DNA of 64,000 nucleotides from Acidovorax sp. 69 (lineage in GTDB: Bacteria; Pseudomonadota; Gammaproteobacteria; Burkholderiales; Burkholderiaceae_C), in contig NZ_PGEP01000001.1 of NCBI RefSeq assembly GCF_002797445.1, forward strand, positions 2,356,501-2,420,500. Reading direction: 5' to 3'. Below are positions 2 to 64,000 of the stretch, in pieces (positions within the stretch are counted from its first letter, which is position 1; every line of letters starts with the position of its first letter). The translations under genes and the position numbers were made by a program. The notes below the pieces were generated by a model. It saw only the letters and a list, made by a program, of their open reading frames with translations. It ran no database searches and was not told the DNA's origin.

Positions 2-97
2 GCTGAAGAAGACGACGGCAAGTTTGAAACCAGCGACACGGACCGCGGCAAGGCCACGCCGGCTGCGCGCGCATCCGACGAAGAATCCGCTATCTGA
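2..97 (+). CDS. C-terminal end of an upstream gene (partial)
   Basis: Thirty-one codons and a TGA are visible; the gene starts before the window. The tail is hydrophilic and acidic (AEEDDGKFETSD..., ending ASDEESAI), which looks like a disordered C-terminal extension. The next gene starts four bases after this stop in the same direction, so the two are probably cotranscribed and translationally coupled. The visible part is too short to assign a family. Confidence 0.55.
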   Translation, partial: AEEDDGKFETSDTDRGKATPAARASDEESAI

Positions 98-8870: not shown

Positions 8871-8977
8871 GTGACGCACAACCTTGCTATAGCTGTCTTC
8901 GAGCCTTTGCCCGCAGAAACTGGCGCGGCACAGGCCAGTGGCTGCCGCGCAAGGGCCGCCCCGCCGCGCTGGCAGCG

Positions 8978-10165: not shown

Positions 10166-10177
10166 AATGCGGGAAAT

Positions 10178-10240
10178 GCTATTGAATGTATAGCTGCTAG
10201 CGCTTGGTAGATAAGCGCTAGAGGCTAGTTTGACGTGAAA
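10178..10240 (+). repeat. Dispersed palindromic element, copy 1
   Basis: GCTATTGAATGTATAGC is followed by the hairpin AGCGCTT/AAGCGCT (10199-10219) and an AGGC trailer. It fills the space between two convergent genes and supplies the TAG stop and last codons of the cytosine-deaminase-like gene. See the finding on this family. Confidence 0.75.
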
Positions 10241-13429: not shown

Positions 13430-13457
13430 GTACCCGCCTCGATCTGAGTTACTTCTT

Positions 13458-13515
13458 TTTTGATAGCGGGTGGTGCTTGATAAATAAGCGCCAAAGGCCA
13501 ATTTTGCTTGAAATG
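13458..13515 (+). repeat. Dispersed palindromic element, copy 2
   Basis: TGATAGC, then a hairpin GGTGCTT/AAGCGCC, an AGGCC trailer and an AATTTTG end. It fills most of the 114-bp gap between the two permease genes, so it is carried in the polycistronic message. Confidence 0.7.
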
Positions 13516-20195: not shown

Positions 20196-20310
20196 GGCGA
20201 CGGCATCCTTGTGGCTGGGGGCGGGCGGTGGCCTGCTCCCGTGTGCATCAGATGATAGCCCGTTGCCTTGCCATTTCAAGCAAAAAGACCCGCAAGCGCC
20301 GGTAGCGTTT

Positions 20311-20336
20311 GCCTGAGCAGCTATAGATTTTGATAC
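20311..20336 (-). repeat. Partial dispersed palindromic element
   Basis: Read on the minus strand, TATCAAAATCTATAGCTGCT matches the left half of the 50-60 bp element family; the AGCGCTT hairpin is missing. It lies in the gap between the dehydratase and crotonase genes. A short hairpin GATACCG/CGGTATC follows at 20333-20361. Confidence 0.5.
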
Positions 20337-20362
20337 CGCAGCAGCGTCAGGCCCGGTATCGT

Positions 20363-21208: not shown

Positions 21209-21275
21209 GGGCTGGCACTGTAGACCCGTCGGCGCACTGCGGGTCGTCACCTGGGTGACTTGAAGTGGATATGGG

Positions 21276-21335
21276 TGAAATGGGCCTCCAGCGCTTGTAA
21301 ATAAAGCGCTGACAGCTATCAAATCAGGAGTTTTT
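21276..21335 (-). repeat. Dispersed palindromic element, copy 3
   Basis: On the minus strand it reads TTGATAGCTGTC, then the perfect hairpin AGCGCTT/AAGCGCT around a seven-base loop, then GGAGGCCCATTT. It lies in the 174-bp gap between the crotonase and glycine-rich protein genes. Confidence 0.75.
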
Positions 21336-27090: not shown

Positions 27091-27150
27091 AAAAGCTATA
27101 ATTTCAATAGCTGCCCGCGCTTTTCACACGAGCGCAAGAGGCCTAAAACA
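27091..27150 (+). repeat. Dispersed palindromic element, copy 4
   Basis: GCTATAATTTCAATAGCTGC is followed by an imperfect hairpin GCGCTT/AGCGC and AAGAGGCCTA. It lies just downstream of hemF, inside the stretch where nadD is expected. Confidence 0.7.
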
Positions 27151-27267
27151 CGTCAAACCGACGCAGCGTCCAAGCTCAACACCAGCGCAACACCCAAGGC
27201 GCAGCCCACTGGCTGCACGATGCGTTGCACGCTATATTGATTCCATTCTCTTTCTATTCACCGCCTG

Positions 27268-28682: not shown

Positions 28683-28717
28683 GGTCGGTAGCGCGGTGTG
28701 GATGGTTTGCTCAGTTT

Positions 28718-28750
28718 TTTATAGCTACTAGCGCTTGATGGATAAGCGTC
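28718..28750 (+). repeat. Dispersed palindromic element, copy 5 (right end interrupted)
   Basis: TATAGCTACTAGCGCTTGAT then GGATAAGCG matches the family, but its right end meets the inverted end of a 165-bp element at 28751. This suggests insertion of that element into or beside the palindromic element. Confidence 0.65.
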
Positions 28751-28915
28751 AGGGAGCCTCTGAACGCATCACCGCGCCGTGTGCATCTGCGGACCCTGGC
28801 GGTCTGCGTTGTTGCAAATACTCGCAATAGCACCGGCTATTGCTGTGTTTTGCGCCTAGCAGCCCATCCCGAACCGCAGCGCACACTTGTCGCTCGATGC
28901 GTGCAGAGGCTCCCT
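28751..28915. mobile_element. MITE-like element with 20-bp inverted ends
   Basis: The left end AGGGAGCCTCTGAACGCATC (28751-28770) and the right end GATGCGTGCAGAGGCTCCCT (28896-28915) are inverted copies with 19 of 20 matches. The 165-bp element has no open frame of note. It holds an inner palindrome AATAGCACCGGCTATT near 28826-28841. Size, terminal symmetry and intergenic position fit a nonautonomous miniature transposable element. No target duplication is evident. Confidence 0.65.
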
Positions 28916-36457: not shown

Positions 36458-36487
36458 GGGCACAGTGTATCCGTCGAATTTGAGTCA

Positions 36488-36536
36488 CATTGGCCTCTGG
36501 CGCTTGTTCATCAAGCACAAGAAGCTATTGTTTTAG
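36488..36536 (-). repeat. Dispersed palindromic element, copy 6
   Basis: On the minus strand it reads CAATAGCTTCTTGTGCTTGA, then a loop, AAGCGCC and AGAGGCCAATG. The TAG within CAATAGC is the stop codon of kdpC. The element fills the kdpC-kdpD gap. Confidence 0.7.
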
Positions 36537-37142
36537 TAGCGAATCGAGTGCCAGGTTCAAGGCCAGAACGTTCACACGCGGCTCGCCCAGCAGTCCCAGC
36601 CAGGGGCTTTGGGTGTGCTGCTGCACCAGCTCCTGCACTTGCGCCAGGGGTAGGCCCCGGGCGCGGGCCACGCGCTCGGCTTGGTAGGCGGCGGCTGCAG
36701 GGCTGATGTGCGGATCGAGCCCGCTGGCCGATGCGGTGACAAGGTCCACGGGCACGGGGCGGGTGTTGCCGGGGTCGGCAGCGCGCAGGGCTTCGATGCG
36801 TGCCTTCACGGCATCTGTCAGCGCCGGGTTGGTGGGGCCTAGGTTCGATCCGCCTGATGCCGTCGCGTTGTAGGGCATGGCCGCCGTCGCCGAACGGCGG
36901 CCCCAGAAGTGGCCGGCCTCGGTGAACGACTGCCCGATCAATTCAGAGCCCACCACCTTGCCACCCTGGGTGATGAGGCTGCCGTTGGCCTGTTGCGGGA
37001 AGGCTGTTTGTGCCACGCCGGTGACGGCCAGCGGGTAGAGCAGGCCTGTGATGAGGGACAGCACGACAAACAGCGTGAGGGCAGGGCGCAGCAGGCCGCC
37101 TGGGCTGGCGGGCACGTCGTCGCGGGGGATACGGATAGGCAT
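36525..37142 (-). CDS. kdpC: Potassium-transporting ATPase subunit C
   Basis: KdpC is the single-span subunit that stabilises ATP binding in the KdpFABC pump. The 205 residues have one N-terminal membrane helix (about 20-42) and a periplasmic or cytoplasmic domain with the family motifs [27 protein letters not shown] and [16 protein letters not shown]. The last codons and the TAG stop lie in a dispersed palindromic element. Between kdpB and kdpC there is a GC-rich repeat of 65 bp. Confidence 0.96.
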
Positions 37143-41453: not shown

Positions 41454-41748
41454 GCGCGGGCGCCAGGCCTGGCTGGCAGAAAGGTTCATGGCAATTTGCT
41501 ATTGAATTTATAGCTTTATGCGCATGATATTCAAGCGCTACAGGCCATTTCTATTCAAAGTGTTGCCTTGTAGCGCGGGTTTGCCGGTTCTCGCACTGGT
41601 TTCGGGCGTCAGCACGCTCGGCAGGTGTGGCGCACCTTGATGTCTATCCGTTCTCCCAACGGGTCATTAGAGAACGCTCACATTGGCCTGCAGCAAAAGC
41701 GCTCGCAAGCTGCGATCATCCCCACCCTGCATCACGCTTCTGTTCTCC
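41454..41748. other. Intergenic stretch upstream of kdp and the EamA gene
   Basis: This completes the 388-bp gap between the kdp operon and the transporter gene. It contains a dispersed palindromic element (41491-41560) and otherwise about 190 bp in which I see no gene, no clear hairpin and no strong promoter match. It should hold the promoter of the EamA gene. Confidence 0.5.
41491..41560 (+). repeat. Dispersed palindromic element, copy 7
   Basis: GCTATTGAATTTATAGC is followed by TTTATGCGCATGATATTCAA, GCGCTACAGGCC and ATTT. The first hairpin is perfect; the second is degenerate on its left arm. It lies in the divergent region between kdp and the EamA gene. Confidence 0.75.
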
Positions 41749-52199: not shown

Positions 52200-52283
52200 A
52201 TGGAGTGGTTGGCCCCGGATTTTGCTGGGGTTGACCCGTCCTGAATAGCGTTGACACCCGGACCGGTTAAATCTCCAGCCAAA

Positions 52284-53509: not shown

Positions 53510-53569
53510 GACACATCTCCCTTTTGAAAGGTCCACGTGTCAACGCTGGGTAGGACGGGTCAGGTGCAA

Positions 53570-56340: not shown

Positions 56341-57294
56341 GTGAGTGGGCAAAAAATTGTGGTTTTGGGCACCGGAGGCACGATTGCGGGCACCTCGGCA
56401 CAAGCGGGGGACAACATTGGCTATACCGCTGCCCAGGTGGGTGTGGACGAGTTGCTGGCCGCAGTGCCCGGCCTTCAGGTGTTGGCGGGCGGTGCATTGG
56501 TGGCGGAGCAGGTGGCACAGATTGACAGCAAGGACATGGACTACGCGGTGTGGCGTGCGCTTGCCTTGCGTTGCGCGCACCATTTGAAGGACCCGCAGGT
56601 GCGGGGGCTGGTCATCACCCATGGCACAGACACCTTGGAGGAGACGGCGTGGTTTCTGCAGGAAGTGCTGGATACACCCAAGCCCGTAGTGCTGACCTGC
56701 GCGATGCGCCCTGCGTCAGCCCTCACCCCCGATGGCCCACAAAACATGCTGGACGCTGTGGCAGTGGTGCTGGCACCGGGGGCTGCGGGGGTGATGGTGG
56801 TTGCTGCTGGCGAGGTGCATGGCGCGCGGCATGTGCAGAAGATCCATCCCTATCGGGTGCATGCATTCAACTCAGGCGATGCAGGCCCCCTGGGCTGGGT
56901 GGAGGAAGGACGCGTGCGTTTGGTGCAAAACTGGCCTCTGGCGCAAGTGAAGTATGTTCATGATGCTATTGAAAATATAGCAAATCCTGGCGAATGGCCC
57001 TGGGTTGAGGTGGTTATGAGCCACGCGGCGGCTTCGGGTAAAGCCGTAGATGCGCTGGTGCGAGAAGGGGTGCAGGGATTGGTCGTGGCATGCACTGGCA
57101 ACGGAACCATTCACCATAGCCTGGAGGCTGCCTTGTCGCGTGCACAAAACACGGGGGTGAGGGTGGTGCGCTCCACCCGATGTACAGAGGGGCAGGTGCT
57201 TCCCAAGCCGGGGGATCTGCTGCCAGACTCCCAGGGGCTGTCGCCTGTCAAGGCACGTGTGACTTTGATGCTCGATCTGCTTCGGGCTGATTGA
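56341..57294 (+). CDS. Asparaginase
   Basis: It hydrolyses asparagine to aspartate and ammonia. Of its 317 residues, the nucleophile Thr is in VLGTGGTIAGT near residue 12 and the second catalytic Thr-Asp in VITHGTDTLEETAW near 88. MRPASALTPDGPQN is also typical. There is no signal peptide, so it is cytosolic. It starts with GTG, with CGGAG seven bases upstream. Around residue 210 the AT-rich codons of HDAIENIANPGE match the left part of the dispersed palindromic element. Divergent lexA and shared LexA boxes suggest SOS-linked expression. Confidence 0.9.
   Translation: MSGQKIVVLGTGGTIAGTSAQAGDNIGYTAAQVGVDELLAAVPGLQVLAGGALVAEQVAQIDSKDMDYAVWRALALRCAHHLKDPQVRGLVITHGTDTLEETAWFLQEVLDTPKPVVLTCAMRPASALTPDGPQNMLDAVAVVLAPGAAGVMVVAAGEVHGARHVQKIHPYRVHAFNSGDAGPLGWVEEGRVRLVQNWPLAQVKYVHDAIENIANPGEWPWVEVVMSHAAASGKAVDALVREGVQGLVVACTGNGTIHHSLEAALSRAQNTGVRVVRSTRCTEGQVLPKPGDLLPDSQGLSPVKARVTLMLDLLRAD
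56963..56992 (+). repeat. Probable left half of the dispersed element inside the asparaginase gene
   Basis: GCTATTGAAAATATAGC (a GCTAT..ATAGC hairpin) followed by AAATCCTGGCG lies in frame and encodes AIENIANPG. It is strikingly AT-rich against the surrounding code. Confidence 0.45.
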
Positions 57295-60340: not shown

Positions 60341-61449
60341 TCAGGCAGGGGGGGATGATAGCGGCGCCCCGGGGGCTGCGATCCTTGGCACCAAGGCAGA
60401 CAGGCTGCCATCCAGGGCATCAAAAAATCGGGGTTCGATCTGCACCACCAAGGGCACGGCCAGCGCATCGGGGTGATGAGCCCACAGCTTGACAGCATCT
60501 TTTTCGGTGCAAACTACGGTCAAGCGCTTGTCTGATAAGCGCTGCCAGCTATTGAAATCATAGTGATCTGGCAAGGCCTCCGCGTGTTGCAGCACCAAGC
60601 CCTCCGCCCTCAGCATGTCAAAGAAGTCCTCCGGCCGTGCCACCGCCGCCAGCGCATGCAGGGGTTGGCCTCGCAGGTCGGCCAGTGGCACCTGGCGCCC
60701 ATCCGATCGCAGGGCATGGGGCGCCAGACCGCGTTGCAGGCCAAATGCGGGTGCGGGTGAACCGTGGGGGGGGCACCGCCTGCATGCAGCACAAAATCGA
60801 CAGGGCGTGGCCACGCCTCCCGCAGCGGACCTGCAGGCAGCAGCAAGCCGTTGCCGATGCCCTGGTCGTTGAAGATGCAGATCTCCAGATCCCGCTGCAG
60901 TGCGAGGTGCTGCAAGCCGTCGTCGCAGATGAGTACGTCGGTATCGGGGTGGGCGGCCAGCAGGGCGCGCGCGGCAGCGATGCGGTGCTGGGCCACGAAG
61001 ACTGGCACGGCAGCTTTGCCCGTGCCACTGCGTGCAATCAACAGGGGCTCGTCACCCACCTCGCTGGCCAGGCTGTCCGGCTGCACCGCACGGCAGTCCC
61101 GGGTGCTGCGGCCATAGCCGCGCGAGATCACGCCAACACGCAGGCCACGGGCCTGCAGGTGCCTGACGAGTGCGATGACCACCGGGGTCTTGCCCGCCCC
61201 GCCGGCAATCACATTGCCGACCACTATCACGGGGCGGCCCGGATGCTCGGCCTGGAGCAGGCCGCTGCGATACAACGCCCGGCGCACTGCCACCAGGGCG
61301 GCATACAGCATTGACACTGGCCATAAGGCCCAGGCAGCTGGACCCCGTGTTTGCCAGATGGCGTGCAGACGCCGCTCGGCGGTGGCTCGGTGTGGGCGCG
61401 CGGCAGGGGGCGGCGAGGGCGGCGGCAGCTGCGGCCCGGAGGCAGCCAT
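60341..61449 (-). pseudogene. lpxK: Tetraacyldisaccharide 4'-kinase with a one-base frameshift
   Basis: LpxK phosphorylates the lipid A disaccharide at the inner membrane. The first part shows a membrane anchor (about residues 38-60), the P-loop [19 protein letters not shown] near 75 and [14 protein letters not shown]. The frame breaks in a run of eight C (minus strand, 60773-60766) after [10 protein letters not shown]. The rest ([16 protein letters not shown] to VCTEKDAVKLW) continues in the -1 frame to 60341. One more C restores the protein. LpxK is normally essential, so a sequence error or slippage is likelier than real loss. A palindromic element lies in frame near LPDHYDFNSWQRLSDKRL. 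Confidence 0.88.
60519..60566 (-). repeat. Dispersed palindromic element inside lpxK, in frame
   Basis: On the coding strand CTATGATTTCAATAGC is followed by TGGC and the perfect hairpin AGCGCTT/AAGCGCT around ATCAGAC. It encodes YDFNSWQRLSDKRL. The structure is the same as in intergenic copies. Confidence 0.65.
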
Positions 61450-62894: not shown

Positions 62895-64000
62895 ATGTTT
62901 GAGCGCACAGGCCCAGCAGTGGCGCCGCGTGTATGGGAAGTTGGCGCGCTATGCCGCGCCATTGCTGATGCCCTGGAGGCGCGCTTCAATCCTGTGGCCG
63001 TGCGCGGCGAGATCACCGGCTTCTCACGCGCATCCAGCGGACATTGCTATTTTTCGATCAAGGATGCGACCGGGCAGTTGCGCTGTGCCATGTTTCGCCG
63101 CGCAGCCAGCCTGCTTGACTTTTCGCCGCGCGATGGCGAATTGGTGGAAGTGCGGGGCCGTCTTGGGGTGTATGAGGCACGCGGGGATTTGCAGTTCATT
63201 GTGGAAAGCATGCAGCGCGCCGGACAAGGGGCGCTGTTCGAGCAGTTTCTTCGCCTGAAGGCCCAACTCGATGCCGAAGGCCTTTTCGATACCGCCCGCA
63301 AGCGCCCCTTGCCCCTGCAGCCCCGGGCCATCGGTCTGGTCACATCGACCGGTGCAGCGGCGCTGCACGACGTGGTCACGGCGCTCAGGCGCCGGGTGCC
63401 GCACATCCCCGTGGTGCTGGTGCCCGCCCAGGTGCAGGGCGTGGCGGCTCCGTCGTCCCTCGTTGCCGCGCTATCAAAACTGTATCTGCTAGCGCAAGAG
63501 AGTCGTGCGCCAGGGGCAGATGGAGCCCTGATTCCGCCCATTGACGTGATTTTGCTGGTGCGCGGAGGTGGCTCCATCGAAGACCTGTGGGCCTTCAACG
63601 ACGAGCGCCTGGCGCGCATGATCGTACAAAGCCCGGTGCCGCTGGTCAGCGGTGTGGGGCACGAGACAGACTTCACCATCGCCGACTTTTGCTCCGACCT
63701 GCGCGCCCCGACGCCCACGGCGGCGGCCGAATTGGTGGCCCAGCCCCGCGATGTGTGGCTGGGTGCGCTGGGCCTGCTGGCCGGCCGCATTGGCGACGGT
63801 GTGCAGCGCCAGCTCGACATACGCCACCAGCGGGTGGATCAGGCCGCCGCGCGCCTGGGCCGCCCTTCGGGTCTGGTGGCCCGCCAACAGATGCAACTGG
63901 CCCGCCTGGCGCAGCGTATGCGCCACGGCGTGCTCCTGAAAATGCAGCGGCTAGCGCAATATCAACAAGCGCTGGAGGCCAATTTGCCTCAAAAATTGCA
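62895..64000 (+). CDS. xseA: Exodeoxyribonuclease VII large subunit (partial)
   Basis: It degrades single-stranded DNA into acid-soluble pieces with XseB. The visible 368 codons include the OB-fold domain (ALEARFNPVAVRGEITGFSR; GHCYFSIKDATGQLRCAMFR) and the catalytic core (AIGLVTSTGAAALHDVVTAL; LLVRGGGSIEDLWAFNDERL; SGVGHETDFTIADFCSDLRA). The start of the C-terminal coiled coil follows. The gene runs off the window. Two segments carry the dispersed palindromic element in frame, one just before the RGGGS motif and one in the coiled coil. The ATG at 62895 gives the usual N-terminus. Confidence 0.94.
   Translation, partial: MFERTGPAVAPRVWEVGALCRAIADALEARFNPVAVRGEITGFSRASSGHCYFSIKDATGQLRCAMFRRAASLLDFSPRDGELVEVRGRLGVYEARGDLQFIVESMQRAGQGALFEQFLRLKAQLDAEGLFDTARKRPLPLQPRAIGLVTSTGAAALHDVVTALRRRVPHIPVVLVPAQVQGVAAPSSLVAALSKLYLLAQESRAPGADGALIPPIDVILLVRGGGSIEDLWAFNDERLARMIVQSPVPLVSGVGHETDFTIADFCSDLRAPTPTAAAELVAQPRDVWLGALGLLAGRIGDGVQRQLDIRHQRVDQAAARLGRPSGLVARQQMQLARLAQRMRHGVLLKMQRLAQYQQALEANLPQKL
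63468..63520 (+). repeat. Dispersed palindromic element inside xseA, first copy
   Basis: GCTATCAAAACTGTATCTGC then TAGCGCAAGAG matches the left and central parts of the family; the right arm is degenerate. It encodes LSKLYLLAQES in a loop that I recall as shorter in other XseA proteins. Confidence 0.55.
63941..64000 (+). repeat. Dispersed palindromic element inside xseA, second copy
   Basis: GGCTAGCGCAATATCAACAA is followed by GCGCTGGAGGCCAATTTGCC. It has the AGCGC/AAGCGCT hairpin, the AGGCC trailer and the AATTT end, and encodes RLAQYQQALEANLPQKL within the predicted coiled coil. Confidence 0.65.

Follow-up and report, generated by a model that had tools for sequence, protein, structure and literature searches.

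The palindromic repeat dispersed through the genome of Acidovorax sp. 69 is a single ungapped motif of 65 bp and fixed length, which is kept at the nucleotide level, is found at the same places in related genera and lies in gaps between genes and, at the gene sites checked, over native codons. At these gene sites, comparison of protein lengths indicates that the motif overlies codons that were already there and would have arisen by substitution. Since at the sites checked it overlies ordinary codons and is not inserted, the motif is best read as a recognition tag on DNA rather than as a jumping element or an RNA hairpin. It would be read in duplex form by a machine that is specific for the sequence and accepts substitutions but no changes in spacing, and either selection or biased recombination (molecular drive) presumably maintains it. 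The chance that this machine is a DNA-uptake apparatus, with the motif as its uptake-type signal, is considered to fall somewhat short of even.

Geometry, number and placement of the motif

An ungapped profile was iterated on 40 evenly spaced 20-kb stretches of the genome, a single contig of 4.97 Mb, in which 127 copies were found in 800 kb, and 20 further stretches were later added together with the window, that is, the whole stretch of 64,000 nucleotides analysed here. The 60 stretches and the window make up 1.264 Mb and contain 186 copies that scored above 20 bits, corresponding to about 730 per genome or one per 6.8 kb. The density of more than one per 10 kb proposed in the sequence-only reading is thus borne out, and the outcome of few or no further copies genome-wide is excluded. 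On 0.8 Mb of control sequence simulated with an order-5 Markov model, the profile scored -1.2 at best and nothing exceeded the threshold. A covariance model built from ten window copies gave at least 150 scored matches in the genome, with 2513 first-look candidates.

The consensus of the motif, TTGCTACTAAATTAATAGCTGCTAGCGCTT-N7-AAGCGCTAGAGGCCAATTTGACTCAAAA, contains 55.6 bits of information and has 38% GC, the copies averaging 43%. Among the 175 copies above 35 bits, mean identity was 0.67 to the consensus and 0.545 from copy to copy, and a neighbour more than 85% identical existed for only two, so that young copies were not seen. The exact core AGCGCTT-N(4..12)-AAGCGCT occurs 107 times in the genome, with a centre of exactly 7 bases in 106 (the reversed pattern gives 1 and 0), and the loop of 6-7 bases described earlier is therefore not borne out. 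When gaps were allowed, a profile HMM returned 223 matches, and a net indel was present in 1 of the 171 that covered at least 55 of the 76 columns, the 52 shorter matches being uninformative on indels and able to hide some. Cross-validated scores placed 191 sites above 15 bits and five between 0 and 15 (one in the control). Weak matches to the whole motif, between -20 and 0 bits, were in excess (307 versus 156 in the control), and therefore some intermediates may exist. Taken alone and above 16 bits, left modules (11 versus 0) and tails (14 versus 2) exceeded the control, while central modules were not above chance. As the sequence-only reading had supposed in naming no family, the window gave no Rfam match (0 at E<=1); a description of the motif was not found in the open-access literature, in which one may still exist.

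The window holds 12 copies, 11 of them detected by the profile. The type copy (10176..10240, plus strand) scores 77 bits with the profile and 78.5 bits with the covariance model, and consists of a left module, a central palindrome, AGGC and an A/T-rich right end. Its left module (10178..10194, plus), of the form (G/A)CTAT-N7-ATAGC, is conserved as sequence, with arms that do not covary, and its central palindrome (10197..10221, plus) has 9-base arms and a 7-base centre, the length being constant. The A-tract position (10228..10231, plus) reads GTTT here, the family being of the AAAA or TTTT type with TpA avoided, and a second A run (10238-10240, plus) follows about one helical turn past it.

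All seven copies listed previously were recovered within 11 bases of their reported positions, two of them on the minus strand, the strand having been absent from that list. Besides the type copy, these are the full copies at 13449..13513 (plus, 69 bits by profile), 21269..21333 (minus, 69.9 bits), 27093..27157 (plus, 60.1 bits, in the hemF-rsfS gap), 36478..36542 (minus, 73.8 bits) and 41496..41560 (plus, 73 bits by profile), and the copy at 28707..28771 (plus, 39.6 bits) in the rlmH/maf gap, whose right end is unlike that of most orthologues. One of two suspected partial copies, near 20311, corresponds to a weak full-length copy (20274..20338, minus, 29.7 bits), and the other, near 8884, has no profile match above 20 bits. 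Four copies had been missed: an antisense copy (56919..56983, minus, 44.4 bits) within an asparaginase-like gene (56341-57294, plus), a full copy at 60502..60566 (minus, 54.4 bits by profile), a weak copy within a predicted ORF (63468..63532, plus, 24 bits by profile), and a full copy at the window end (63930..63994, plus), which matches the covariance model and is cut off for the 101-column profile. The window also contains a pair of 40-bp inverted repeats (52232-52271 and 53523-53562), 78% complementary and 1.25 kb apart around two ORFs, which is probably an insertion sequence.

Placement was assessed against genes predicted by our own gene caller without annotation cross-check, according to which 83% of the genome is coding. 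Of the 186 copies, 134 lie in gaps, 46 within predicted genes and 6 at stretch ends; hence the intergenic location first described holds for the 134 and fails for the 46. Among gap copies, 52 lie in convergent gaps (27 +- 5 expected from gap length), 72 in co-directional gaps (74 +- 6) and 10 in divergent gaps (33 +- 5), those in co-directional gaps being located at a median of 21 bp downstream of the stop codon. Orientation is unbiased with respect to co-directional genes (36/36) and replichore (99/76, p=0.10). Forty copies are found deep within predicted genes, 26 sense and 14 antisense, mostly in four of the six frames and as variants that avoid stops. Host genes include those for MutS, GlmU, MnmE, RpoN, EarP, UvrA, DnaX, MetG, aconitase, a DUF3418 helicase and an AddA-like protein. 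The DNA-repair genes with copies (MutS, UvrA, AddA-like, SbcC-like) are too few for enrichment statistics. A promoter role, considered because one site has TATAAT in its left module, was rejected in view of the shortage of copies in divergent gaps.

Copies number 2.92 per 20 kb on average, with a dispersion index of 0.82 over the 60 stretches (p=0.16) and of 0.49 over the 54 copy-bearing ones (p=0.004 versus a truncated Poisson). Spacings below 2 kb are scarce (31 versus 41-44 expected; p=0.02 and 0.0025), and the shortage of those below 1 kb is not significant. Six 20-kb stretches (L038, L041, L171, L172, L183 and L184) carry no copies, and Pfam matches of 28 chosen proteins relate them to metal resistance and efflux, secretion, nitrate respiration, and catabolic transport and regions, a resemblance which suggests that acquired DNA lacks the motif.

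Native codons and orthologous sites

The part of MutS between fixed anchors is 47 residues long in 11 of the 13 members of the family (49 and 58 in the other two). In outgroups from other families it measures 46-55 residues, with 48 in eight of the 12 genomes compared, two of the 14 outgroups having been dropped for split matches. In comparison with solved structures from outside the family, carriers are 7 residues longer at the GlmU site, 7 and 3 longer at the two EarP sites and 4 longer at the MnmE site. Over these five gene-borne sites in four genes, the difference between carriers and outside proteins is about -1 to +7 residues, and because 65 bp would add about 22, none is an insertion of the motif's own length. 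The UvrA site, which falls between the protein's two halves, was left out of this comparison. The near-equal lengths of the MutS outgroups and of the solved GlmU, EarP and MnmE also speak against an in-frame insertion like that of the Rickettsia palindromic elements (RPE). At the MutS site, motif scores of seven carriers range from 34 to 75 bits, and none of the other 18 genomes scores above -17. In one genome without exact cores (G005), the motif is absent at all five traced sites and the MutS length is unchanged, which indicates loss by substitution, not by excision. Spans within the family (GlmU, 27 residues in 29 of 30 genomes and 25 in G005; EarP-1, 16-29; EarP-2, 31-45) are no test of insertion, since a motif lost by substitution keeps the length. 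No clean empty site was found among 12 copies examined, most of which were lineage-restricted, many targets having changed gaps or no match. In the UvrA linker of G043, a different, longer in-frame sequence (LSRVRERAGVR..PHPSPLPEGEG) occupies the place where relatives have the motif.

Constraint at synonymous sites was evaluated by comparing the motif score with that expected given the protein and the gene's own codon usage outside the site (p<0.05), with a profile trained on 175 copies that included the five tested sites, and with most other genera picked for exact cores. Synonymous codons follow the motif in other-genus orthologues of EarP-1 (5/6), EarP-2 (6/6), UvrA (4/6) and GlmU (8/8). 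In MutS they do so in 4 of the 8 family members from other genera and in none of the 12 outgroups. When the motif was placed 60 or 90 nt away, mean z ranged from -0.5 to 0.25, and z exceeded 2 in 10 of 552 control rows (EarP-1 0/108, EarP-2 1/108, UvrA 8/116, GlmU 0/120, MutS 1/100). In UvrA, CTA accounts for 0.5% of leucine codons outside the site, and at one codon of the site it is used by all but two of the 23 genus members (21) and by 3 of the 6 genomes from elsewhere. In EarP-1, one isoleucine codon is ATA in 24 of 27 genomes, ATA making up 31 of all 283 isoleucine codons there. Because the motif is kept at synonymous positions, its maintenance does not act through the protein.

Orthologous gaps, defined by both neighbour genes in order, were sought in 80 named records with rlmH, the rest having no gene pair or synteny; the same gap is occupied in 42 records at hemF-rsfS and in 44 at rlmH-maf. 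A copy is present in 18 of 22 orthologous gaps for the site at 20274, 9 of 11 for 21269, 29 of 61 for 27093, 44 of 74 for 28707 and 5 of 6 for 36478, and the strand is identical in all 105 orthologous intergenic copies of these five window sites. The hemF-rsfS and rlmH-maf loci without a copy include Limnohabitans, Hydrogenophaga and Curvibacter. Identity was 0.646 between orthologous copies (93 above 35 bits), 0.542 between non-orthologous copies of different genomes and 0.255 after shuffling; with 0.577 within genomes, the excess is small and concerted evolution was rejected. At four sites, gapped identity was 0.68-0.77 in the copies, 0.60-0.66 in flanks of up to 30 bp and 0.56-0.61 in shuffled flanks, whereas at 36478 the flanks (0.81) are no less conserved than the copy (0.74 ungapped, 0.79 gapped). 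In the hemF-rsfS gap (27093-27113 and its orthologues), most of the 42 loci have GCTATAATTTC or a similar sequence as their left module, which in some Paracidovorax and Comamonas remains with little else, perhaps as a -10 box.

Beyond this genome, where a search had been proposed, family members were found in other genera, three of which show the same layout of copies. Of the 23 other genomes in the genus, 21 contain exact cores, between 5 and 325 each, and two contain none; they also occur in 1 of 16 genomes from other families of the order. Within the family, at least one is present in 84 of 399 genomes and 42 of 141 genera, none being found in 99 genera, and at least five are present in 43 of the 399 genomes, representing 17 genera, our own genome included; single matches can be chance, since the backward control also yields some. 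One genome (G041) has no exact cores, yet keeps copies, and a lack of exact cores need not mean a lack of the motif.

A blastn search with a consensus, which would miss most diverged copies, matched none of 50,697 phage records and 3 of 72,556 plasmid records. A 242-kb Diaphorobacter plasmid (NZ_CP049911.1, piece L345:1502-1566) has a near-consensus copy of 89.8 bits, flanked by cobN and a gene for a TonB receptor; no copy is present at the rlmH loci of two Diaphorobacter genomes. On an E. coli plasmid (NZ_MZ513635.1, piece L344:1494-1558), a class 1 integron has a 65.5-bit copy between its dfrA12 and aadA2 genes, in the DUF1010 reading frame of the cassette usually named gcuF. The presence of the motif there suggests a Comamonadaceae-type genome as the source from which the cassette was captured. 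Pfam DUF1010 has three matches in our genome, of which two (profile positions 1-30, one below the cut-off) fall on motif copies, and the best (positions 30-66) is about 1.3 kb from a copy; the start of this Pfam family may be a translation of the motif.

Duplex DNA, RNA hairpin or mobile element

The paired arms had been taken as a sign that the element is selected or copied as a folded nucleic acid. This was not supported, the arms being conserved mainly as sequence. In 128 intergenic copies, the central palindrome has 808 Watson-Crick cells of 1152, versus 769 +- 8.5 with one side shuffled (z 4.5), and the left module shows no excess (455 of 640 versus 459 +- 3.3). Pair changes on both sides, counted in 118 copies, numbered 40 versus 32.5 +- 4.5 in the main palindrome and 10 versus 11 in the left module. 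Compensatory change, the check suggested earlier, thus gives a modest excess in the central palindrome, which is weak by that standard since shuffles reach 48, and none in the left module. Columns depend on one another most strongly as neighbours in the A-tract, where they read T-T or A-A and hardly T-A, with one TpA observed versus 35 expected, and this is a feature of duplex DNA. Additionally, the constant geometry argues for a duplex, because a change in length would be tolerated in a hairpin loop but not in a duplex whose contacts fall on fixed faces of the helix.

It is very unlikely that the motif is an RNA element, a hairpin at 3' ends that terminates transcription or protects mRNA. Copies do lie close to stop codons and the central palindrome shows its modest pairing excess, but the left module shows none, the exact cores hold their 7-base centre almost without exception, and on the transcribed strand of co-directional gaps mismatches readable as G-U (51) are no more frequent than A-C (47). 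The T run is an A run in one third of copies (TT 76, AA 35 of 118), orientations are equal, and gene-borne copies are sense as well as antisense; with the tests of wobble asymmetry, U-tract and orientation negative and covariation weak, this explanation was rejected. A palindromic mobile element of the REP, MITE or RPE kind, spread in an ancestor and now decaying, is also improbable, though marginally less so. Such an origin would suit a palindrome in gaps near stop codons, numbers of exact cores that vary from 0 to 325 within the genus and in-frame gene copies that recall those of Rickettsia, and an old insertion with later loss could leave carriers 3-7 residues longer at four of the five sites. 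However, a motif-length insertion is seen at none of the five, and the lack of young copies, the near absence of indels and the synonymous constraint speak against it. The single Y1_Tnp (RAYT-type) gene of the genome has no copy within about 1.5 kb; in other genomes 9 of 29 Y1_Tnp loci have one within about that distance, at varying positions and roughly as density predicts, and the gene also occurs in genomes without exact cores (G002, G041, G044, G052 and G057). A REP/RAYT system was rejected, the transposase gene not being flanked by repeats and no link being seen.

Possible uptake signal or docking site, and known systems

The duplex-recognition reading that is put forward here, more tentatively than the link to an uptake apparatus itself, is that of a self-recognition DNA signal of many Comamonadaceae-type genera, which at 65 bp would be the longest uptake-type signal known. 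Biased uptake and recombination would have written it into gaps and genes in opposition to codon usage, and substitutions would have erased it where recognition was dropped. DNA fragments of the cell's own kind that carry the motif would be preferentially bound and recombined, biased uptake and recombination would pull each site towards the consensus, and the signal would spread over the core genome in both orientations, while unrelated DNA would stay without it. In favour of an uptake signal are the roughly 730 copies, the strong consensus, the fixed geometry, the origin by substitution, the synonymous constraint, the constant strand of orthologous copies, the counts that are more even than chance in the 54 copy-bearing stretches (not over all 60) and the absence of orientation bias. 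A ComEC-type gene is present (PF03772, one match, E 2.3e-61), but the domain occurs in 381 of 399 family genomes and, being nearly universal, does not separate carriers from others. On the other hand, the enrichment in convergent gaps and depletion in divergent ones point to transcription, and the stepwise build-up of a 65-bp site is hard to account for, isolated central modules not being above chance.

The main rival to uptake is intracellular docking, which remains below even probability and ranks just under the self-recognition signal. In this case, a nucleoid protein, topoisomerase or similar factor would bind or wrap the 65-bp duplex at about 700 places, serving supercoil relief between convergent genes or chromosome organisation, and weak purifying selection would maintain the sites; gyrase acts at the BIMEs of E. 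coli. The strict spacing, the TpA-poor A-tracts and the dyad symmetry fit a wrapped duplex, copies occupy 45 of 109 convergent, 71 of 393 co-directional and 10 of 141 divergent gaps of at least 50 bp, and persistence is explained without uptake. Docking gives no obvious reason, however, for the retention across genera, against codon usage, of sites that lie well inside glmU, mutS and earP, and 55.6 bits are far beyond what a binding protein needs for locating 730 sites. Additionally, 99 of the 141 sampled genera have no exact core, though the motif may persist without exact cores, and a candidate protein was not found.

Uptake signals have a short core of about 10 bp (about 9-12 bp), accompanied by flanks, and the motif is far larger than any uptake signal that we know of. 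According to PMC1626085, such signals are numerous, at about one per kb, have a strong consensus and arise by substitution, an alignment test having shown that USS were not inserted. Their orientation is unbiased and their spacing somewhat regular, some lie in coding sequence, and their A/T segments are separated by roughly a turn of the helix. PMC1939737 describes no bias of uptake sequences to positions downstream of genes and questions their evenness. The motif resembles the USS of Pasteurellaceae and the DUS of Neisseriaceae in its hundreds of copies, its preference for gaps together with many gene copies, its non-insertion origin, its strong consensus, its lack of orientation bias and the spacing of its A/T segments, and in being common to a clade and lost in some members. 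Moreover, its columns 52-60, ACAAGCGCT, are one base off the Apl-type USS ACAAGCGGT given in PMC1626085, a likeness that chance could produce. It differs in being 65 bp long, of about 56 bits, dyad-symmetric and present once per 6.8 kb. Since size, density, symmetry and convergent-gap bias disagree, the motif is not classed as an uptake signal.

Among other repeats, REP/BIME elements with RAYT are likewise palindromic, intergenic, near gene 3' ends and present in hundreds of copies; unlike them, the motif has a fixed geometry, no recent copies, gene copies that are not inserted and no link to a Y1 transposase. RPEs are also read through in frame within housekeeping genes, but they are insertions of about 150 bp according to PMC10969869, whereas here the native protein length is nearly kept. 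The BRE of Bordetella and Comamonadaceae is, like the motif, a short repeat in gaps and some genes; as described in PMC3110155, it measures 75-91 bp with 69% GC, includes variable-number tandem repeats and reaches at most 29 per genome, and it is set apart by that length and GC (motif 65 bp, consensus 38% GC).

A sequence of 65 bp and about 56 bits that is kept at synonymous sites across genera and was not inserted is hard to fit to these systems. To our knowledge, no bacterial repeat readily explains such a motif. It raises the testable question of whether an environmental betaproteobacterium recognises its own DNA by a long duplex signal, and it cautions that some of what lies between genes and in loops of these genomes owes its sequence to a constraint other than that of protein. 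Pfam DUF1010 seems to be partly a translation of the motif, and the motif offers a marker by which DNA from genomes of this kind can be recognised in mobile pools, e.g., integron cassettes.
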